DNA of 64,000 nucleotides, taken from the NCBI RefSeq assembly GCF_004217175.1, contig NZ_SHKI01000005.1, positions 248,001 through 312,000 of the forward strand, in the 5' to 3' direction. The stretch's first letter is position 1. Each line of letters begins with the position of its first letter. A program made the position numbers and the translations under genes. This document shows, piece after piece, positions 41,753 to 51,281 of the stretch. A model generated the notes under the pieces. That model ran no database searches, was not told the DNA's origin, and worked only from the letters and a program-made list of their open reading frames with translations. Source of the stretch: Leucobacter luti. GTDB lineage: Bacteria; Actinomycetota; Actinomycetes; Actinomycetales; Microbacteriaceae.

Positions 41753-42670
41753 GTGTCAGGGGCGGAGAAGCGGGACGAGCTGCGGAGCGCGCTCGAGACG
41801 ACGCGCGCGCAGCTCGAGGCGACGAACGCTCGCATTGAGGCGCGCGCCGGTCGCAACCTCTTCTTCGCGATCCTGTCGGGGCTAGTGTTCGGGGGAGTGT
41901 TCCTCGCGAGCCTGCTGCTCGTGAAGCAGGTGTTCGTTGCGCTGGTCGCGGTCGTGGTCGCGGTCGCTCTCGTGGAGCTCGCCTCCGCGTTCCGCGTGTC
42001 CGGGCGCCGGGTGCCGCGCGTCGGCGTGGTCCTCGGCGGCCTCATTATTGTGGGTGGCGCGTTCTTCTGGGGTGCCGAGGGCATGCTCGTCGGGCTGTTC
42101 GCCGGTTCGGCGCTGTTGACGCTGTGGCGCCTGGTCGAGGGCCTGTTCCCCGCATGGGAGACGCCCCCGCGCACGCTCATTCGAGATGTATTCTCGGGGC
42201 TCTTCACGCTCGTGTACGTGGCGTTCCTCGCATCGTTCACCGTGCTGCTGGTCGCTCCGGAGCGCGGTGAGTGGTGGGTGTTCGCGCTCGTCGTGATCGT
42301 CGTCTCGGTCGATGTCGGCGCGTACGCGGCAGGCGTGACGCTGGGCAAACACAAGATGACCCCGCGAATCAGCCCGAACAAGACCTGGGAGGGCTTCTTC
42401 GGCGCAGCGGTGCTCGCGGCCGTCGTGGGGGTGACCGTCTCGGTGTTCGCGCTGCAGCAGCCCTGGTGGGTGGGCATCATCCTCGGCCTCGTGGTGCTCC
42501 TCACCGCGACGGGCGGTGACCTCACCGAGTCTTTGATCAAACGCAACCTCGGAGTGAAAGACATGAGTAGTTGGATCCCGGGTCACGGCGGATTCCTCGA
42601 CCGGCTCGACTCGCTGCTGCCGTCCGCCGTCGGCGTGTACGGCGTCGCGCTCTTCCTCGGAGTGGTCTGA
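41753..42670 (+). CDS. cdsA: Phosphatidate cytidylyltransferase
   Basis: 305 residues. It makes CDP-diacylglycerol for phospholipid synthesis at the membrane. A predicted cytoplasmic coiled N-terminus (about 1-40) is followed by eight or so membrane helices. The family signature near the C-terminus is present: GDLTESLIKRNLGVKDMSS and PGHGGFLDRLDSLL. Start GTG 41753 lies 5 nt after frr, with a weak ribosome site. Its TGA may overlap an ATG at 42670, an alternative start of the next gene. Confidence 0.93.
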   Translation: MSGAEKRDELRSALETTRAQLEATNARIEARAGRNLFFAILSGLVFGGVFLASLLLVKQVFVALVAVVVAVALVELASAFRVSGRRVPRVGVVLGGLIIVGGAFFWGAEGMLVGLFAGSALLTLWRLVEGLFPAWETPPRTLIRDVFSGLFTLVYVAFLASFTVLLVAPERGEWWVFALVVIVVSVDVGAYAAGVTLGKHKMTPRISPNKTWEGFFGAAVLAAVVGVTVSVFALQQPWWVGIILGLVVLLTATGGDLTESLIKRNLGVKDMSSWIPGHGGFLDRLDSLLPSAVGVYGVALFLGVV

Positions 42671-42708
42671 TGGGCGCGCGTTCACAGCAAGCCCGCCGCG
42701 GCGCGGGG

Positions 42709-42714
42709 CAGAAT
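42709..42714 (+). promoter_or_regulatory. -10-like hexamer CAGAAT
   Basis: CAGAAT, then GGTGCG (6 nt), then GTG at 42721. It differs from TANNNT only at the first base. Confidence 0.35.
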
Positions 42715-42720
42715 GGTGCG

Positions 42721-43275
42721 GTGCACACATCGTTCCCACTCGCGTCCGGCTCACACCCGGGGTACGCGCCCGAGCAGGTTGATGAGTTCTTGGCGCGCGC
42801 GCGAGCCTCGTACGAGGGGGCCGACACCGCTGGTGCGGGGATGACTGCTGCCGAGGTGCGGCACACGGCGTTCCAAGTGAAGCGCGGTGGGTACGCGACC
42901 CGCTACGTCGACGCGGCGCTCGATCGCCTCGAAGAGGTGTTCTTTGAGCGTGAGCGCCGGGCGAAGGTCCGAGCCGCCGGCGAGGACGCGTGGTGGGACG
43001 AGACCCGTGCGCTGCTCTCCGAGGTGCGCGGCCGCATTCAGCGACCGCGGGGTCGCCGGTTTCGCCGGCGCGGCCTGTTCGCCACGGGGTACCGCCGCTC
43101 GCAGGTTGACGCGTTCCTCGACCGCGTCTCCGAGATGTTCGAGCGGCGCGAGCTCGCCCTGAAGCCCGCTGAAGTGCGCGACGTGGTGTTCCACTCGCAG
43201 TGGCGTGGCTACGACGAAGACCAGGTCGACGCGCTACTCGACGGCGTGGTCGAGCTCATCCTGGCGACGCGCTGA
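42721..43275 (+). CDS. DivIVA-domain-like protein
   Basis: 184 residues with two related segments. Each has the DivIVA-type pattern of an aromatic/glycine turn followed by a coiled helix: GYAPEQVDEFLARARASYEG (about 14-35) and GYRRSQVDAFLDRVSEMF (about 123-140); two further half-units are GGYATRYVDAALDRLEEVFF and RGYDEDQVDALLDGVVELI. No membrane span. Such proteins in actinobacteria relate to Wag31/DivIVA curvature-sensing at the poles, here perhaps as a small adaptor. I favour GTG 42721 for the family-like start; ATG 42670, overlapping the cdsA stop, would add 17 residues. Confidence 0.75.
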   Translation: MHTSFPLASGSHPGYAPEQVDEFLARARASYEGADTAGAGMTAAEVRHTAFQVKRGGYATRYVDAALDRLEEVFFERERRAKVRAAGEDAWWDETRALLSEVRGRIQRPRGRRFRRRGLFATGYRRSQVDAFLDRVSEMFERRELALKPAEVRDVVFHSQWRGYDEDQVDALLDGVVELILATR

Positions 43276-44416: not shown

Positions 44417-44950
44417 CTAGAACAGCGTGGGAGCCGCCGGTTCCGCGGGATCGACGTCGACGGTCGCGCTCGGCGCAGTGGCAGCGCCAGCGAGCCCGGG
44501 CCCCTCGTCTGGCGCGCGGCCAGCCTGGAACGCCGTCGCGGCCGCGCGGGCGCGATCGTCGGCGGCCTCGTTGAGCGGGTGGCCGGCGTGGCCCTTAACC
44601 CACTCAAACGTCACCGTGCGGCCCACGAGGGCGGCGTCAATGCGTTCGAGCAGCTCCCGGTTGAGTACCGGCTTGCCATCGGCCTTGCGCCAGCCCTTCC
44701 GTTTCCACCCCGGCATCCACTTCGTCACCGAGTTGATCACGTACTGGCTGTCACAGAGAATGTGCAGTGGCTCGGGCGCGCGGTCGGCCGTGGCGAGCAG
44801 TAGGTCGAGCACCGCCATGAGCTCGCCCTGGTTGTTCGTCGCGCGCGGCCAGCCCCCGGCGCGCCACTGCTGCGCGTCGACGACCCAGGCCCAGCCAGCG
44901 GGTCCTGGGTTCCCGAGGGCGGATCCGTCTGCTGCAGCTGTGAGTGTCAT
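44417..44950 (-). CDS. rnhA: Ribonuclease HI
   Basis: 177 residues. It degrades RNA in RNA-DNA hybrids. The four acidic residues of the active site are visible: Asp8 (AAADGSALGNPGPAGWA), Glu43 (NNQGELMAV), Asp67 (LCDSQYVIN) and an Asp near 131 (KGHAGHPLNEAADDRA). The C-terminal 35 residues are Ala/Pro/Asp-rich and likely disordered. GAGAGGA lies about 6 nt before ATG 44950. It lies downstream of the coiled-coil gene but is separated from it by a terminator. Confidence 0.92.
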   Translation of the reverse strand: MTLTAAADGSALGNPGPAGWAWVVDAQQWRAGGWPRATNNQGELMAVLDLLLATADRAPEPLHILCDSQYVINSVTKWMPGWKRKGWRKADGKPVLNRELLERIDAALVGRTVTFEWVKGHAGHPLNEAADDRARAAATAFQAGRAPDEGPGLAGAATAPSATVDVDPAEPAAPTLF

Positions 44951-44970
44951 GGTTCAATCCTCTCAGAACA

Positions 44971-45008
44971 CAGCACCCCGCCGCGGCGAGTGCCGCGACG
45001 GGGTGCTG
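44971..45008 (-). terminator. Terminator after the coiled-coil gene
   Basis: CAGCACCCCG (44971-44980) pairs with CGGGGTGCTG (44999-45008) and CGCGGC with GCCGCG inside, loop GAGT, one mismatch. It separates the large coiled-coil gene from rnhA on the minus strand. Confidence 0.75.
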
Positions 45009-45050
45009 CTGGTGTGGGTGCTCCCGGCCGGTGTGCCGCCCGCGGGGCTA

Positions 45051-47963
45051 CTACTGCTCGGGTGCGGGCTGCGCCGCGGCCGCCTGCGCGTCCGGGGCCG
45101 CGGAGGCCGTGACCCCATCGGCGACGGGCGCGTCGACGAGGCGGCCAGCCACGGTGCTCATCTTCTGCGCGTTTGTGATGACCTCGCCGAGGCTCTCGAA
45201 GTAGCGCGCCACAGCGCCGCGCTCCACCTTCAGCTGCGTCATGCGGTCCTCTGCGGCGGCAAGTACCTTCGAGGCGCGATCCTCGGCCGCCGCGAACGTG
45301 GTCTGTGCGCGCTGCTCGGCCTCCAGCACGATCTCCGCGGCCTGGCGCTCGGCGACAGCGCGGGCGTTGCGGGCGTCCTGCGCCGCGTTGCGGGTGATCG
45401 TCTCGTACTCGGCGCGGGCCGCGTCGAGCTGAGTGCGCAGCTCCGACAGCTCCGCGGTCGCCGCGGCGACCTCGCGCTGCGAGGCCTCCGCGGCCTCGCG
45501 CTGCCGCGTGGCGAGATCCTGCTCGAGGGTCTCGCGCTGCTCGGACGCGTGCAGCGCAAAGTTGCGGGTATCGGTGTCGATCTGCTCGCGCAGCTGACGT
45601 GCCGCATCCTCAGCCGCAGTGCGCAGCGCGGCGAGCTGCCCCTCCTCTGCGCCGCGGTACTCCGCGAGTTCGGCGACCGTGTCGGCGCGCAGCAGGTCGG
45701 TCTCCTCGGTGACCGTGGCGCGCAGCGCGGCGACCTCGCGGGCGATTGCCGCTTCCTGAGCCTCGCGCTGCGTGCGCAGCTCCTCGGTGTGCTGCGCCAC
45801 CTCGGCTGCGATCTGGCGATCGTGCTCGGCGCGCTCGCGGGCGAGATCCGTGTCGAGCCTCGCGCGCTCACGCTCGATCTGCAGCTCCAGTTCCTCGCGC
45901 TCGAGCCCGAGTGCCTCGGCAGCTTCCTCCCGCGAGATTCGCATCCGCTCGGTTTCGGCCGCCTGCTCGTCGGCGATCCGCTGCTCGTGTGCGCTCAGCT
46001 GCGCGGCGAGGCGCTCGTTCTGCACGGTTGTCGCGTCGGTGATGCGGGCCTCGTGCTCCGCGAATCCGCGCGCCTGCTCGGTCGCGGCGCGATCGCGCTC
46101 GTCGCGCAGCTCCTGCTCGTGGACGCCGCGCTCGGCGTCGATCTGCGTGCGGTGGCTCTCCCACTCGGAGATGAGGCGGTCCTGGTGGCTCGCGAGCTCG
46201 GAACCAATGCGCTGCTCGTGCGCAGCGCGTTCGGTGGCGATCCGCTCGGTGTGCGCGGCGAGCTCGCTTGCGAGCGCGTCGTCCTGGGTCGTGCGCTCGG
46301 ACGCGAGAGCCTGCGTGTGCGCCTGCAGCTCCGAGTCGATCGCGGTCTCGTGCTCCTCGCGCTCGGCAGCGATGCGGGCCTCGTGCTCGGCGCGCTCGGC
46401 GGCGATGCGGGCCTCGTGCTCGGCGCGCTCGCTGGCAATCCCGGCTTCGTGGGCCTCCCGCTCGGCCGCGATCGTGAGCTGGTGGGCCCCGAGCTCGCTG
46501 CTGAGACGCGTCTCGTGGGCGTCGGACTCGGTGGCGATCCGAAGCTGGTGCTCAGACAGCTCGGCGGCGATCCGCGTTTCGTGAGCGTCGCGCTCGTCGC
46601 GCATGCTCGCCTCGTGCGCCACGATCGCGGCGCGCAGCGAGTTGTCGTGCGACTCACGCTCCGCAGCGAGCTGCGTGTCGTGCACGTCGCGCTCGGTGGC
46701 GAGCTGCGTGTCGTGCGCCTCGCGCTCCGAGGAGATCCGGTCGCGGTGCGCGGTGAGCTCACCGCCGAGCTGAAGTTCCTGCTGCTCGCGGCTTGCCGCA
46801 AGCTCGCTGTCGAGCTGGGCGCGCTCGTCGGCGCGCTCCTGCGTCGCCCGGGCGGTGATGCGTTCCTGTTCGCGCGCGGCCTGGTCCGTCAGGGTCGCGA
46901 GCTCTGCCTGGTGCGCCTCGAGCTCACGCGTGATCGTGGCCTCGTGCTCGGACCGCTCCTGCGCGCTGCGATCGAGGTGGGTCTGCTGCTCGAAGGCAAT
47001 CCGACGATCGTGCTGCTCGCGCTCGGTGTGCAGCGCCTCGTCGTGCTCCGCGCGCTCCTGCGCGATCCGCCCGCGAAGCGTCTCCATCTCGGTGGTGAGC
47101 GCGCGCCGCTGCGCGTCGAGCCCGGCCTCAAGCTCGCGTGTGCGCTCGGTGAATCGCTCCTCGAGCTCCGACTCCTCGCGCTGGCGCTTCGCCTCGAACT
47201 CGGTGCGCGCGCGCTCGCCCTCACGGACCAGGCGTGCCCGCTCCAGCTCGGCCTCGCGCTCGCTCTCCTCCTGCTGGCGCGCAAGCGAAACGGCGTGCTG
47301 CTCGGTCTGCGCGCGGAGCTCCTCGGCGGCGGACTGTGCCTCTGCGGTGACGCGCTCGGCCTCGGCCTGCGCGGCAGCGAGTGCCGCCTGTGCCTCGCGG
47401 TGGGCGCTCTCGCGCGCCACCCCGGCCTCGCGTTCGGCGGAGCTCCGGGTGAGCTCTGCCGTGTGCGTCGCTTCCTCGAGCAGGCGTTCGCGCTCGGCGT
47501 TCGCTGCAGCGTCTTGCTGCGCGGCGTCAGTGCGGGCCCCGGTGATGAGGGTCTCGGCCTGCTCGGATGCCGACCGCAGGAGCTCGTCTGCCCGGGTCTG
47601 CGCGGAGGCGAGCACCCGCGTGCTCTCCTCCTCGGTGGTGCGGCGCAGCTTTTCCGCGTCGAGGTCGGCCTGGGCCATGAGACGCTGGGCGTGATCCTCG
47701 GCGACCTGCAGGCTCTTCTCCACACGGAGTCCGAGTCCCGAATACCCGCTCGCGCCGAGCTCCGCAACCTGCTCCTGGAGCTCCGCGATCAGCTGCCGCT
47801 GCTCCTGCCCCACCCCGGTCGCCTGCTGGTGGGCCGACTGCAGCGACTCGATGTGTGACTGGAGTGCGCTGATGTGACCGGTGAGAGTTCCGATCCGGTC
47901 GTCTACTTCTTCGCGGTTGTAGCCGCGAAACGCAGGGGAGAAGGGCTGGACTGCTTCTGACAC
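45051..47963 (-). CDS. Giant hendecad coiled-coil cytoskeletal-like protein
   Basis: 970 residues from GTG 47963, which has GGAG 5 nt upstream and starts VSEAVQPFSPAFRGYNREEVDD, a DivIVA-like N-terminus. ATG 48026 would add a Pro-rich 21-residue head and lies close after a -10 (TATCAT, 48037-48042). The rest is almost all coiled coil. From residue 307 (DNA 47045) at least 47 consecutive 11-residue units run in unbroken phase to about 823, with consensus HExRIAxERAE; 26 of the first 33 begin with His. The C-terminus is Ala/Gln-rich. It resembles the Streptomyces Scy/FilP filament proteins in general design, so a polar or envelope scaffold is likely. Neighbouring 33-bp DNA units at about 46360-46440 are almost identical, so repeat number may change by recombination. 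Confidence 0.85.
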   Translation of the reverse strand: MSEAVQPFSPAFRGYNREEVDDRIGTLTGHISALQSHIESLQSAHQQATGVGQEQRQLIAELQEQVAELGASGYSGLGLRVEKSLQVAEDHAQRLMAQADLDAEKLRRTTEEESTRVLASAQTRADELLRSASEQAETLITGARTDAAQQDAAANAERERLLEEATHTAELTRSSAEREAGVARESAHREAQAALAAAQAEAERVTAEAQSAAEELRAQTEQHAVSLARQQEESEREAELERARLVREGERARTEFEAKRQREESELEERFTERTRELEAGLDAQRRALTTEMETLRGRIAQERAEHDEALHTEREQHDRRIAFEQQTHLDRSAQERSEHEATITRELEAHQAELATLTDQAAREQERITARATQERADERAQLDSELAASREQQELQLGGELTAHRDRISSEREAHDTQLATERDVHDTQLAAERESHDNSLRAAIVAHEASMRDERDAHETRIAAELSEHQLRIATESDAHETRLSSELGAHQLTIAAEREAHEAGIASERAEHEARIAAERAEHEARIAAEREEHETAIDSELQAHTQALASERTTQDDALASELAAHTERIATERAAHEQRIGSELASHQDRLISEWESHRTQIDAERGVHEQELRDERDRAATEQARGFAEHEARITDATTVQNERLAAQLSAHEQRIADEQAAETERMRISREEAAEALGLEREELELQIERERARLDTDLARERAEHDRQIAAEVAQHTEELRTQREAQEAAIAREVAALRATVTEETDLLRADTVAELAEYRGAEEGQLAALRTAAEDAARQLREQIDTDTRNFALHASEQRETLEQDLATRQREAAEASQREVAAATAELSELRTQLDAARAEYETITRNAAQDARNARAVAERQAAEIVLEAEQRAQTTFAAAEDRASKVLAAAEDRMTQLKVERGAVARYFESLGEVITNAQKMSTVAGRLVDAPVADGVTASAAPDAQAAAAQPAPEQ

Positions 47964-48216: not shown

Positions 48217-50307
48217 GTGCGATACGTGCTTGCGATTGCAGCGCTCGTGCTGTCCGGCGTCATGCTGATCCTGGGGATTGGCCAGCGCACGTTTCTTGCG
48301 GGACCCGCTGAAATCAGCTTTCCCGTGGAGACGAATTCGGAGGCGAGCTTTGCGGTCGTCGACGGCGCCGAGTTTGCAAAGGTGCCCGGTCAGGCGAACG
48401 TGGTCGTCTCCGGCGACCAGGCGTTCGTGGCCACCGGCGCGACTCGCGACGTTCGCGGCTGGGTAGAGCCCTTTTTGCACGCCGAACTCTCGGTTGACAC
48501 CAAGGGGAAGCGGCTCCTCAGTGCGCTGATCGCCCCCGTGCAAGACGCCGGCCCCGAGGGAGTCAGCACCGAGACCGGCCTGGACCCGCGGGGGAGCGAT
48601 CTCTGGCTGGAGGAGCGCACCATTGACGCCTCCGGCAGCGGTGTTGAGACCGAGTCCCTGCGCGTCCCGGTATCGGTGACCTCAGACCAGTCGGTGTTGA
48701 TAGCCGCAGACGGGACCCAGCCAATGCCGGCAGACGTGACCCTCGTGTGGGCGCAGGATCGGAGCACACCTTGGGCGGGGCCGCTGCTCGTTGGCGGCGG
48801 CGTGCTCGCGCTCGTGGGCGGTCTGCTCTACCTGCTCGCGGTCGATCATGACCGGCGCGGGCTTGGGCCGCGTCGCGGCCGTCGGGGCCCGCTGCAGGGC
48901 CTGCGCAATCGCAGGGCACGTGGCGGATCCCGGCGATCTGCCGCAGCCTCGCCCGCCGCAGCTGCGGGCCCGGCGGCCGATCCGACGCCGGCAGCGGCCG
49001 ACGGGACCGAGTCTGAGGCCCCGCCCGCGGCTGCCGACACTGATGCGGGCGCCGCGCCCGTCTCGCCAGTCGACACCGAAGCACCAGCTGCGCCCGAGAC
49101 ACCTGCCGAAGCACCTACCGCCGCACCCGAGGCGCCTACCGCCGCACCCGACGCGGCCGGTGGAGCGAAGGCCGAACGGCGGGCTGTGACGTCGCGGCGC
49201 CCCGGGTGGGCGCGGCGCGGCGCGCTCCCCGCGCTGGGGCTGACGGTCGCGCTCGGCCTGAGCGGCTGCTCGGCGAGCTACTGGCCGCAGACGGCGGCGC
49301 CCACGAAGACGTCGGAGGCGCCCTCCGAGTCGCCGGCCTCCGCGGTCGCCCCGGTCCCCGTGACCGACGGGCAGCTGCAGCGGATCATCGAGCAGATCTC
49401 CGCGGACGCGATGACCGGCGACGACACGCTCGACGCGTCCGCGCTGGAGGATCGGTTCACGGGTGACGCGCTCGCGCAGCGGGCCGCAAACTACGCGATC
49501 CGGTCCGCAAAGCCGGACTACGGGGTGGTGCCGCCGCGGATCACGGCGGAGGAGCTCGACTACGAGCTGATGCAGAGCACCGAGACCTGGCCGCGCACCC
49601 TGTTCGTCACGGTGGCATCGACCCCGGGGGCGGCCGCGAGCGATGCCGGCACTGACGCCGAGGCCGGGGCCGAGACGACCGGCACGTCGCCGTCGCTCGC
49701 GCTCGTGATGACGCAGGCAAACCCGCACGAAAACTACCGGGTGTCTCGGGTGATCGCGCTGCGCGGCGGCATCTCGATGCCGCAGGCCGCGCCCGCCGAG
49801 GACGGGACCGCCGTGCTCGCGAACGACATCGAGACGCTCGTGCTGCAGCCGGGGCAGGTGGGCGCTGCCTACGCTGCGCTGCTGCAGAACGGCGCAGACG
49901 CCGAGGAGGCGCAGTACTTCGACCTCACCACGGACTCCCTGCTCGACACGTACGGCAAGGTGCGGGCCGAGGCCGCGCAGGCGCAGTCGGACGAGAAGGG
50001 GCAGACCATGAAGTTCTCGGTGACTGCCCGCCAGGGTGACGAGGATCCGGTTGCGCTCTCGACCGGGGCCGGTGGTGCGCTCGTCGCCACGACCGTGATC
50101 GAGGAGCAGATTGTGGACGCCGACGGCGGCCGGTACAAGCCGCAGGCTAAGGATGAGGTAACGGCACTCTCGGGGCTGAGCGGCGAGCAGGACCGCCTGG
50201 TGCAGGAGGTCGCGCACCAGATGCTGTTCTTCGTCCCGAGCAAGGCCGAAGACGCGAAGATCCAGCTCCTCGGAGTGACGAGCGAGCTTGTAGGAGTGAG
50301 GAACTAG
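48217..50307 (+). CDS. Membrane protein with internal lipobox-like segment, unknown function
   Basis: 696 residues. Helix 1 (VLAIAALVLSGVMLILGIG, 4-22) is followed by an exported domain (about 25-180), helix 2 (GPLLVGGGVLALVGGLLYLLA, about 189-209), a basic patch, an Ala/Pro-rich linker (about 240-330), then a third hydrophobic stretch with LGLTVALGLSGCS (about 340-352), identical in form to a lipoprotein lipobox, and a second exported domain (about 380-696). It reads as a membrane protein fused to a complete lipoprotein; the lipobox follows RR-type residues (RRPGWARRG). I recognise no enzymatic family. Start GTG 48217 with GAGGAG 5 nt upstream. The next gene starts 2 nt after its stop, so it works with the thioredoxin-fold protein. 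Confidence 0.75.
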   Translation: MRYVLAIAALVLSGVMLILGIGQRTFLAGPAEISFPVETNSEASFAVVDGAEFAKVPGQANVVVSGDQAFVATGATRDVRGWVEPFLHAELSVDTKGKRLLSALIAPVQDAGPEGVSTETGLDPRGSDLWLEERTIDASGSGVETESLRVPVSVTSDQSVLIAADGTQPMPADVTLVWAQDRSTPWAGPLLVGGGVLALVGGLLYLLAVDHDRRGLGPRRGRRGPLQGLRNRRARGGSRRSAAASPAAAAGPAADPTPAAADGTESEAPPAAADTDAGAAPVSPVDTEAPAAPETPAEAPTAAPEAPTAAPDAAGGAKAERRAVTSRRPGWARRGALPALGLTVALGLSGCSASYWPQTAAPTKTSEAPSESPASAVAPVPVTDGQLQRIIEQISADAMTGDDTLDASALEDRFTGDALAQRAANYAIRSAKPDYGVVPPRITAEELDYELMQSTETWPRTLFVTVASTPGAAASDAGTDAEAGAETTGTSPSLALVMTQANPHENYRVSRVIALRGGISMPQAAPAEDGTAVLANDIETLVLQPGQVGAAYAALLQNGADAEEAQYFDLTTDSLLDTYGKVRAEAAQAQSDEKGQTMKFSVTARQGDEDPVALSTGAGGALVATTVIEEQIVDADGGRYKPQAKDEVTALSGLSGEQDRLVQEVAHQMLFFVPSKAEDAKIQLLGVTSELVGVRN

Positions 50308-50309
50308 AG

Positions 50310-51281
50310 ATGTCACAGCAGATCCCCGAACGAATCCCCGGTGGCGGCATTGACCTGAGCCACCTCGCCGCGCGCGGCCAGGCGGCCGCGCAGCCGGGCG
50401 GCCCCGCAGCTGCTGGCGCGGGCGGTGCGCCCGACGCGCGCGTGGTCGATGTGCCGTCGCTCGTGATGGACGTGACGGACGCGAGCTTCGAGCAGGCCGC
50501 GCAGCTCTCGACGGTCGTGCCCGTGGTGGTCGAGCTGTGGGCCGCGTGGAGCGAGCCCAACGCCGAACTGAGCCCGGTCCTCGAGAAGGTCACGCGCGAG
50601 TTCGGCGGGCGCGTGCTGCTTGCGCGCGTCGACGCGGACGCGAACCCCGGACTCGTGCAGGCATTCCAGGCGCAGGCGATCCCCACGGTCGTCGCGCTTG
50701 TCGCCGGGCGCCCGGTGCCGCTCTTCCAGGGGGCGCAGCCGGAGGAGCAGGTGCGCGACGTGTTCACGCAGCTGCTGCAGCTCGCCGAGCAGCACGGGGT
50801 GGTGGGGCGCGTCGCGGCGCCCGACCAGGACGCGACGGCCGCCGACGCCGCGCCGAGCGAGCCCGAGATCCCCGCCGCGCACGTCGCCGCGGTCGAGGCC
50901 GCCGAGCGCGGTGACTTCGCCGGGGCAGTCGCCGAGTGGGAGGCGGTGCTCGCGAAGGCGCCAGCCGACGCCGTGGCGCGTGCCGCACTCGTGCAGATGC
51001 GGTTGCTGCAGCGCCTCTCGGGTGTCAGCGCTGAGGAGGTCCGCGCGGCCGCCGCTGCCGCGCCCCAGGGGATCGCCGAGCAGCTCGCGGTCGCCGATCT
51101 CGACGTGTCGGGCGGGCACGTCGAGGATGCGTTCCTGCGACTCCTCGACCTGTTCGCCGCGAGCGACGAGGACGCCCGCGCGGTGGTGCGTGAGCGCCTG
51201 CTCGAGCTGTTCGAGGTGGTTGGCGTGGCTGACCCGCGCGTGATCGCCGCCCGGGGGCGGCTCGCGAACCTGCTCTACTAG
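50310..51281 (+). CDS. Thioredoxin-fold/TPR co-chaperone-like protein (YbbN/CnoX type)
   Basis: 323 residues. A Gly/Ala-rich N-terminus (1-45) is followed by a thioredoxin fold (about 50-155) with VVPVVVELWAAWSEPNAELSPVLEKV and QAIPTVVALVAGRPV. The CxxC of real thioredoxins is SEPN, so it has no redox activity. The rest (about 185-323) is helical, tetratricopeptide-like, ending LFEVVGVADPRVIAARGRLANLLY, as in YbbN. Such proteins hold unfolded clients for GroEL or DnaK in E. coli. It is preceded by GAGGAACTAGAG across the upstream stop and followed 8 nt later by a cysteine desulfurase. Confidence 0.85.
   Translation: MSQQIPERIPGGGIDLSHLAARGQAAAQPGGPAAAGAGGAPDARVVDVPSLVMDVTDASFEQAAQLSTVVPVVVELWAAWSEPNAELSPVLEKVTREFGGRVLLARVDADANPGLVQAFQAQAIPTVVALVAGRPVPLFQGAQPEEQVRDVFTQLLQLAEQHGVVGRVAAPDQDATAADAAPSEPEIPAAHVAAVEAAERGDFAGAVAEWEAVLAKAPADAVARAALVQMRLLQRLSGVSAEEVRAAAAAAPQGIAEQLAVADLDVSGGHVEDAFLRLLDLFAASDEDARAVVRERLLELFEVVGVADPRVIAARGRLANLLY

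Follow-up and report, generated by a model that had tools for sequence, protein, structure and literature searches.

Analysis of a 64,000-nucleotide stretch of Leucobacter luti DNA (assembly GCF_004217175.1, contig NZ_SHKI01000005.1, positions 248,001 to 312,000; hereafter the window) reveals on its minus strand, at 45051-47963, the gene for a predicted DivIVA-like cytoskeletal rod of the FilP/Scy group, an assignment well supported as regards both family and periodicity. The middle of this rod is built of pure 11-residue repeats (hendecads), most of which carry a histidine in the same column, and this histidine array is a genuine variation within a known cytoskeletal family, conserved and specific to one clade. 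The open frame has a GTG start at 47963 and a stop codon at 45051-45053 and encodes 970 amino acids; the aligned start codon is shared by the homologues that carry the array, excepting L054 and its copy L079, so the choice of the 5' end is sound. The gene and the regions of its product are:

45051..47963, minus strand: coding sequence of a predicted FilP/Scy-group DivIVA-like rod protein of 970 amino acids (open frame, homologues, aligned starts).
47769..47963, minus strand: residues 1-65, predicted DivIVA-like domain with the RGYNREEVD motif, then a heptad coil (PF05103, PDB profile matches, periodicity).
47679..47756, minus strand: residues 70-95, second conserved motif GASGYSGLGLRVEKSLQVAEDHAQRL, starting at a predicted helix break (alignment, AlphaFold 2 model).
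47046..47678, minus strand: residues 96-306, proximal coiled coil with phase shifts and a periodicity between hendecad and 51/14 (periodicity and register analysis).
45957..47045, minus strand: residues 307-669, 33 pure hendecads, 26 with His in column 1, predicted at the edge of the core (register table).
45657..45956, minus strand: residues 670-769, hendecads in unchanged phase, with column-1 His only at 714 and 725 (register table, Viterbi decoding).
45162..45656, minus strand: residues 770-934, distal coil interrupted by phase shifts, with the strongly conserved QLKVERGAVARYFESLGEV segment at its end (alignment, AlphaFold 2 model).
45054..45161, minus strand: residues 935-970, tail predicted to be unstructured (predicted local distance difference test score, pLDDT, below 50).

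An initial annotation of this DNA had read the protein in steps of 11 from residue 307, and its table of 33 units (DNA 47045-45957) with 26 starting in His is reproduced exactly, the seven other units starting with A, A, L, Q, Q, A and Q. Between residues 307 and 670, 26 of the 27 histidines share one of the 11 columns, as against a maximum of 11 under random placement (100,000 trials), and the His periodicity peaks at 11 and its harmonics. The hendecad periodicity claimed there is likewise borne out, the large hydrophobic residues (ILVMFWY) of the same region peaking at a period of 3.67 with a power of 25.4, compared with only 0.4 at the heptad value of 3.5. Counting Ala among the hydrophobics leaves only a weak 11/3 peak (2.8), and the strongest signal is then the 5.5 harmonic of the 11-mer (20.6). 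Heptads are ruled out for residues 307-670 on either count and exist in the N-terminal coil. Over the central rod the power is 23.9 at 11/3 versus 4.8 at 51/14. At least 47 unshifted units had also been claimed, and of these 40-42 are secure: in most Viterbi settings the first shift past residue 307 falls at 746 when only the hydrophobic pattern is decoded, or at 770 when all letters are, while the strictest all-letter setting runs on to residue 840 (about 48 units), leaving the last few units ambiguous in register. His starts 28 of the 47 claimed units, which adds two after unit 33. The array is interrupted at residues 362-405 by four successive units without His (column 1 being A, A, L and Q), a gap that the consensus of a 17-protein alignment suggests to be shared.

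The family assignment rests on the combination of the N-terminus with the rod. In PMC9858780 the DivIVA-like domain is defined as an RGY-type motif followed by a heptad coil; the protein shows both, and its long hendecad rod places it in the FilP/Scy group, in agreement with the DivIVA-like N-terminus and the kinship to FilP and Scy that had been proposed from the sequence at the outset. In its motif, RGYNREEVD, Asn replaces the first Asp of RGYDxxEVD, whereas R, G, Y and V are invariant in 41 sequences; RGYN is found in 41 and RGYD in 22 proteins of the measured homologue set. The coil behind the motif has a mean peak of 3.49 in the 82 of 87 homologues in which it is measurable (47 with the array and 35 others). 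PF05103 is detected in all 41 aligned N-termini at E up to 0.01, the 159-residue N-terminus of the query itself scoring 29.5 bits (gathering score 28), while a Pfam scan of the full-length protein gives nothing up to E 0.1; a FilP adjoining Scy itself scores 26.6, under the cut-off of 28. A profile search of the PDB matches GpsB, DivIVA and Wag31 chains, and a PDB sequence search with the His region returned no match. Leucobacter accounts for 21 of the 22 named homologue loci, and the remaining one is from Pseudoclavibacter (Actinobacteria).

Three closer identities were considered and set aside. PolyDIV proteins, with two to eight DivIVA-like motifs per chain, are excluded by the single RGY motif recognized by eye in the rod protein. 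Identity with Scy is rejected, as the rod middle has a period of 11/3 and not 51/14 and the Scy model NF041483 lies far under its cut-off (17.7 bits on the N-terminus against 1040); this model is absent from the four families that match the full protein up to E 0.1, and it finds no match in the L. luti genome at E 0.001. DivIVA/Wag31 proper is rejected at 29.5 bits against a cut-off of 260 for NF050102; the genome's best Wag31 match lies elsewhere (C6:254751-255242, 81.1 bits) and is also below it.

The second motif begins at a helix break predicted at 69-72 in an AlphaFold 2 (AF2) model and contains an invariant G77, with Y73, G75, L76, E81, L84, A87 and E88 at least 90% conserved in 41 sequences (these and the AF2 residue numbers follow the alignment, which begins at residue 2). 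The RGY motif and this second motif are 52 residues apart in 45 of 47 proteins with the array and 45 residues apart in 32 of 35 others, a difference of one heptad. Beyond it AF2, run with a 17-sequence alignment, predicts a single continuous helix over residues 81-934 with a modest pLDDT of 65; the helix ends at the QLKVERGAVARYFESLGEV segment, which has invariant columns in that alignment, and the C-terminal region of the rod peaks at a period of 3.640.

A homologue of the rod is found in all 54 Leucobacter genomes searched, that of L. luti included, and in 80 of 100 relatives (those 54 included), with 47 of 60 genomes in the family sample. The homologue set comprises 87 distinct proteins from 105 loci, of which three lack a protein, one cut copy and exact duplicates having been dropped; the 47 with at least 20 His are here called the His clade. 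This clade holds 41 Leucobacter proteins and one each from six other genera of the family (G139, G116, G143, G056, G111 and G058). In a register decoded blind to His, column 1 is occupied by His in 1126 of the 1596 complete units of these 47 proteins (median 72% per protein, range 38-82%, lowest in L054 with 9 of 24); the positions first noticed in one sequence are thus kept in its homologues. On a midpoint-rooted tree of the N-terminal 200 residues, which leaves 20 of its 83 inner branches open and has long rows for L054 and L076, the His clade is one side of one branch (support 99/93, and 100% of 200 bootstrap trees), and the tree places the origin of the array in a single change. The remaining 40 homologues contain between 0 and 18 His each, and since five of them are 870-1003 residues long, a long rod does not need His. 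A search with the His region at E 1e-8 among 149 genomes of the order recovered only the L. luti genome, and among the 21 of 149 rows listed none is another genome of genus g1.

A pure 11-mer with periodic His had been singled out as different, but the 11-mer as such is not: pure 11/3 rods without the array are seen in L080, L082, L083 and L096 of the same family and in L064 and L070 of another, so uniqueness of the pure hendecad is rejected and only the His array is special. L064 (870 amino acids) and L070 (1003 amino acids), from another family of the order, are long FilP-like rods that perhaps lengthened independently; pooled with L063, their hendecads are rich in Ala, Tyr and Arg, in a decoding of different register that makes the composition not comparable.

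Conservation of the array is specific to its column. Column-1 identity is 0.96 with five relatives and 0.75 with nine further ones, the highest of any column in both sets, and 0.88 with L002, where column 8 is higher at 0.94. All 37 His codons of the query are CAC, and at 122 aligned His sites in the five near relatives the codon is kept at 106, synonymously changed at 13 and altered in its residue at 3. It is against these figures that a neutral low-complexity repeat, grown by slippage in GC-rich DNA, or else a stable single α-helix, has to be weighed. The sequence is highly charged, with large hydrophobics at 15%, as would suit either; some adjacent units are near-copies (units 20 and 21 share 0.91 nucleotide identity), and the number of column-1 places in the central stretch of the His-clade proteins varies from 25 to 51. 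Nonetheless, the column-specific conservation and the excess of synonymous over changed His codons speak against neutrality, the mean nucleotide identity of adjacent units is only 0.54, and a check of whether His is lost at the rate of variable columns found that it is not. A single helix is further disfavored by the scarcity of acid-to-base pairs at i to i+3/i+4, 0.04 per residue in 307-670, a value that stands without a single-helix control for comparison. Both explanations seem very improbable to us.

The composition of the repeat indicates where the histidines point. Across the 47 His-clade proteins, Leu or Ile fills column 5 in 88% of units (ILVMFWY in 93%), column 8 is Glu in 76%, and column 9 is Arg in 56% and Leu in 17%. 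Relative to a hydrophobic moment calculated from Ile, Leu, Val, Met, Phe, Trp and Tyr only, with His excluded, column 1 lies at -36, column 5 at -3 and column 9 at +29 degrees, and columns 9, 1 and 5 show the 4-4-3 spacing that core positions a, d and h have in hendecads. In a rough model of two parallel helices, with approximate Cβ geometry, the same-column Cβ-Cβ distance at the observed moment is 7.2-8.5 Å for column 1 (5.4-10.0 Å over every setting tried) and 13.5-17.6 Å for columns 3, 4, 7, 10 and 11. Angle and distances together put the His stripe at the edge of the interface and not outside, sharing this edge with acids, and in the model the column-1 His is a core-edge residue beside the Ile/Leu column. 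The initial annotation had instead envisaged an outward stripe, with His on the solvent face setting the lateral packing of filaments or binding another molecule. Such a stripe would agree with a regular array on one face, and the unusually polar core means that the interface may lie elsewhere if the rod is no simple dimer; we nevertheless regard it as improbable, given that column 1 is only 36 degrees from a moment computed without His and joins columns 5 and 9 in the core spacing.

The same distances bear on a metal-stacking rod, in which facing His pairs, alone or with the column-8 Glu, would bind layers of Zn, Ni, Cu or Co that make the rod stiffer or bundle it. Cβ-Cβ separations in the modelled range might let His pairs share a metal, and the spacing is regular over 26 units. 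However, two His per layer make a poor site without further ligands, replacements by Gln are frequent, the distance model is crude, and among the neighbors given to Pfam, which cover part of the window, no metal-transport family is named. We hold metal binding to be unlikely.

A more serious alternative, though one we judge appreciably less probable than the proposal below, is a purely structural polar layer, in which the core-edge His would specify parallel in-register pairing and oligomer number with no physiological switching by pH or metal. Asn or Thr serve as polar specificity layers in other coiled coils. Moreover, the replacement of His is mostly by Gln (23 of 29 in the set of nine relatives; 13% of all column-1 residues), which is polar but non-ionisable. 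Ten pooled array-less relatives of the family (L080, L082, L083 and L096 with six shorter ones; 2123 residues) carry, in the best register, Thr (58%) or Ala (22%) in column 1, with Arg/Lys in column 2 and Val in column 9, so that a polar or small residue may have stood in column 1 for a long time. Against this, Thr, Ala or Gln would do for such a layer, yet His stands in about 70% of units at identities down to about 36%, and the correspondence of Thr to His depends on the preferred but unproven register (-0.039 per residue for offset 0 versus -0.130 for the next).

That register suggests that the array arose by a Thr-to-His change in column 1. Offset 0 leads in 27 of 41 rows anchored at the N-terminus and 25 of 39 anchored at the C-terminus (L055 and L089 among the rows are an identical protein), while offset 7 leads in 12 of the 39 C-terminally anchored rows, under which His would stand where the relatives carry a core Leu; the alternative that a core Leu changed to His may hold in that case. 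A charge swap, with the Arg/Lys of column 2 in the relatives becoming Glu/Asp here and positive charge moving to columns 1 and 9, is kept as a lead only, because it depends on the register between the His clade and the relatives.

Acidic residues accompany the histidines. D/E in column 8, four positions ahead of the histidine, precedes His in 0.89 of units as against 0.52 before other residues, and D/E in column 2 occurs in 0.67 of His units as against 0.43 of the rest, the units not being independent in either comparison. The net charge per residue of 307-670 is -0.12 with His uncharged and -0.05 with all His charged. The acids beside His and this charge shift suggest that the His ladder would tie the charge and pairing of the rod to pH near neutrality, and with His on the core side, pairing that depends on pH is a more natural reading than a lateral stripe. 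Building on the family, periodicity, core-side placement, conservation and single origin computed above, we propose a straight FilP-like dimeric rod in which stacked ionisable His layers tune pairing or bundling with pH, a proposal to which we give an even chance; the parallel dimer, its electrostatics, the pH response and the polar location in it are what we infer. The N-terminal DivIVA-like module would form a parallel dimer and dock on partners at the pole or septum. The remainder would be a single helix some 850 residues (roughly 130 nm) in length, with its middle a nearly straight pure-hendecad coiled coil. Column 1 would have become His in the ancestor of Leucobacter and the six further sampled genera, and His layers would follow one another at intervals of about 1.65 nm along some 54 nm of the parallel dimer. 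These layers, with the Glu of column 8 and the Glu/Asp of column 2, would most likely form an ionisable polar core. Protonated His would pair with the neighboring acids, fixing the register of the chains and removing much of the excess negative charge, and rod pairing and lateral bundling would respond to cytoplasmic pH more strongly than in the array-less relatives. In a bolder form, which we consider doubtful, an intermediate-filament-like rod with about 26 ionisable His layers would switch between loose and tight pairing or bundling through cooperative protonation near pH 6-7, reading cytoplasmic pH, by means of a ladder that arose once in a rod lacking it.

Several observations weigh against a pH-tuned dimer. 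The structural layer accounts for the Gln replacements at least as well as pH does, and the units without His, with which the His units were compared for their acids, are degenerate in other columns too, column 5 falling from 0.99 to 0.76. In the two-helix model the Glu/Asp of column 2 (Cβ-Cβ 7.0-8.2 Å) are as near as His, and columns 5 and 9 are nearer (3.5-5.1 Å), which sets His at the edge and not the center of the core. With Arg in most column-9 positions the core contains few hydrophobics, only one Ile/Leu in every 11 residues being dependable; a simple dimer may hold together weakly, and the helices might instead form a higher oligomer or pack antiparallel. The full-length AF2 model has low confidence (predicted template modelling score 0.22), and Foldseek with the N-terminal AF2 model gave no significant match. 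In favor of a pH response, the assembly of Streptomyces coelicolor FilP is reported in PMC6599971 to depend on pH, the protein being fully sedimented at pH 3.9 and 6.8 and soluble to 32% at pH 8.8 and 72% at pH 11. This published response is, however, that of a Streptomyces protein, and as the six FilP frames beside Scy have only 3 His each, it does not require a His array.

The gene is embedded in a conserved neighborhood, with the following features:

44417..44950, minus strand: RNase H gene (rnhA), directly downstream of the rod gene (PF00075; 20 of 20 Leucobacter loci over 7 kb).
48217..50307, plus strand: divergent neighbor, open frame of 696 amino acids with no Pfam match and hydrophobic stretches recognized by eye, conserved in the neighborhood.
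50310..51281, plus strand: ybbN-like thioredoxin-TPR protein, conserved neighbor (PF00085, PF14561).

The order rnhA, rod gene, divergent 696-residue-type protein is found in all 20 Leucobacter loci over 7 kb, with ybbN next in 19, L040 ending before it. Homologues in L053-L056 of the family, and those in L130 and L131, are likewise flanked by the 696-residue-type protein and ybbN. Of 13 loci from other parts of the order, 9 have ybbN nearby, 7 have glgB and 3 a thiolase (L057, L060, L069); L058 has none of the three, and in L068 the N-terminal query found no match. Scy, too, has a thiolase beside it, and crotonyl-CoA carboxylase/reductase and methylmalonyl-CoA epimerase are reported beside Scy and some FilP clusters; the shared thiolase flank suggests that the rod genes and Scy may be positional counterparts. 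The frame p41689, antisense of a cdsA-like frame, was left out of this comparison. On the plus strand at 42571-43275, 1.8 kb from the rod gene, lies a frame with four GY-type motifs (HPGYAPEQVD, GGYATRYVD, TGYRRSQVD and RGYDEDQVD) and a PF05103 score of 53.8 bits, whose product looks like a PolyDIV protein as described in PMC9858780; its true start is probably inside the listed frame, and 19 of the 20 Leucobacter loci also have the gene, as do L053-L056, L130 and L131. Antisense to nearly the whole rod gene runs a plus-strand open frame of 1143 codons (44427-47858), which probably arises as a side effect of the repetitive, GC-rich sequence.

PMC9858780 describes hendecad coiled coils as largely unexplored. 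Within the rod family, homologous rods of pure hendecads and comparable length either have or lack a His layer in each repeat, a natural comparison through which the contribution of ionisable residues at the core edge of a filament can be tested directly. It is also a ready template for pH-responsive rods, and adds long members of the FilP/Scy group well outside Streptomyces.

No precedent for a His array in FilP-type rods was found in searches of open-licence PubMed Central papers. With DivIVA/Wag31 the protein shares the family of the N-terminal domain, its NF050102 score being under the cut-off. It resembles Streptomyces Scy (NF041483) as a very long DivIVA-like rod, and Scy is described in PMC9858780 as built almost entirely of hendecads; the overall period of Scy is 51/14, however, with all ten Scy frames at 3.642-3.644 and powers of 0.0-2.8 at 11/3, whereas the rod middle is pure 11/3, so the difference from the 51-residue repeat drawn by the initial annotation stands. 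These frames, chosen at ten loci as Glu-rich frames, have about 1.1-1.3% His and lengths of 1,271-1,600 amino acids, beside which a protein of 970 is hardly the giant it had been called. Like Streptomyces FilP, it combines an RGY-type motif and heptad coil with a hendecad rod, in a group confined to Actinobacteria according to PMC9858780; unlike FilP, it is about three times the length of the six 310-311-residue FilP frames beside Scy, bears the His array and is flanked by ybbN and the 696-residue protein in place of the thiolase. Also close are the array-less L080, L082, L083 and L096, rods of 799-978 amino acids with alignable N- and C-terminal regions and the same pure 11/3 period, which differ from it in holding 0-13 His per protein.

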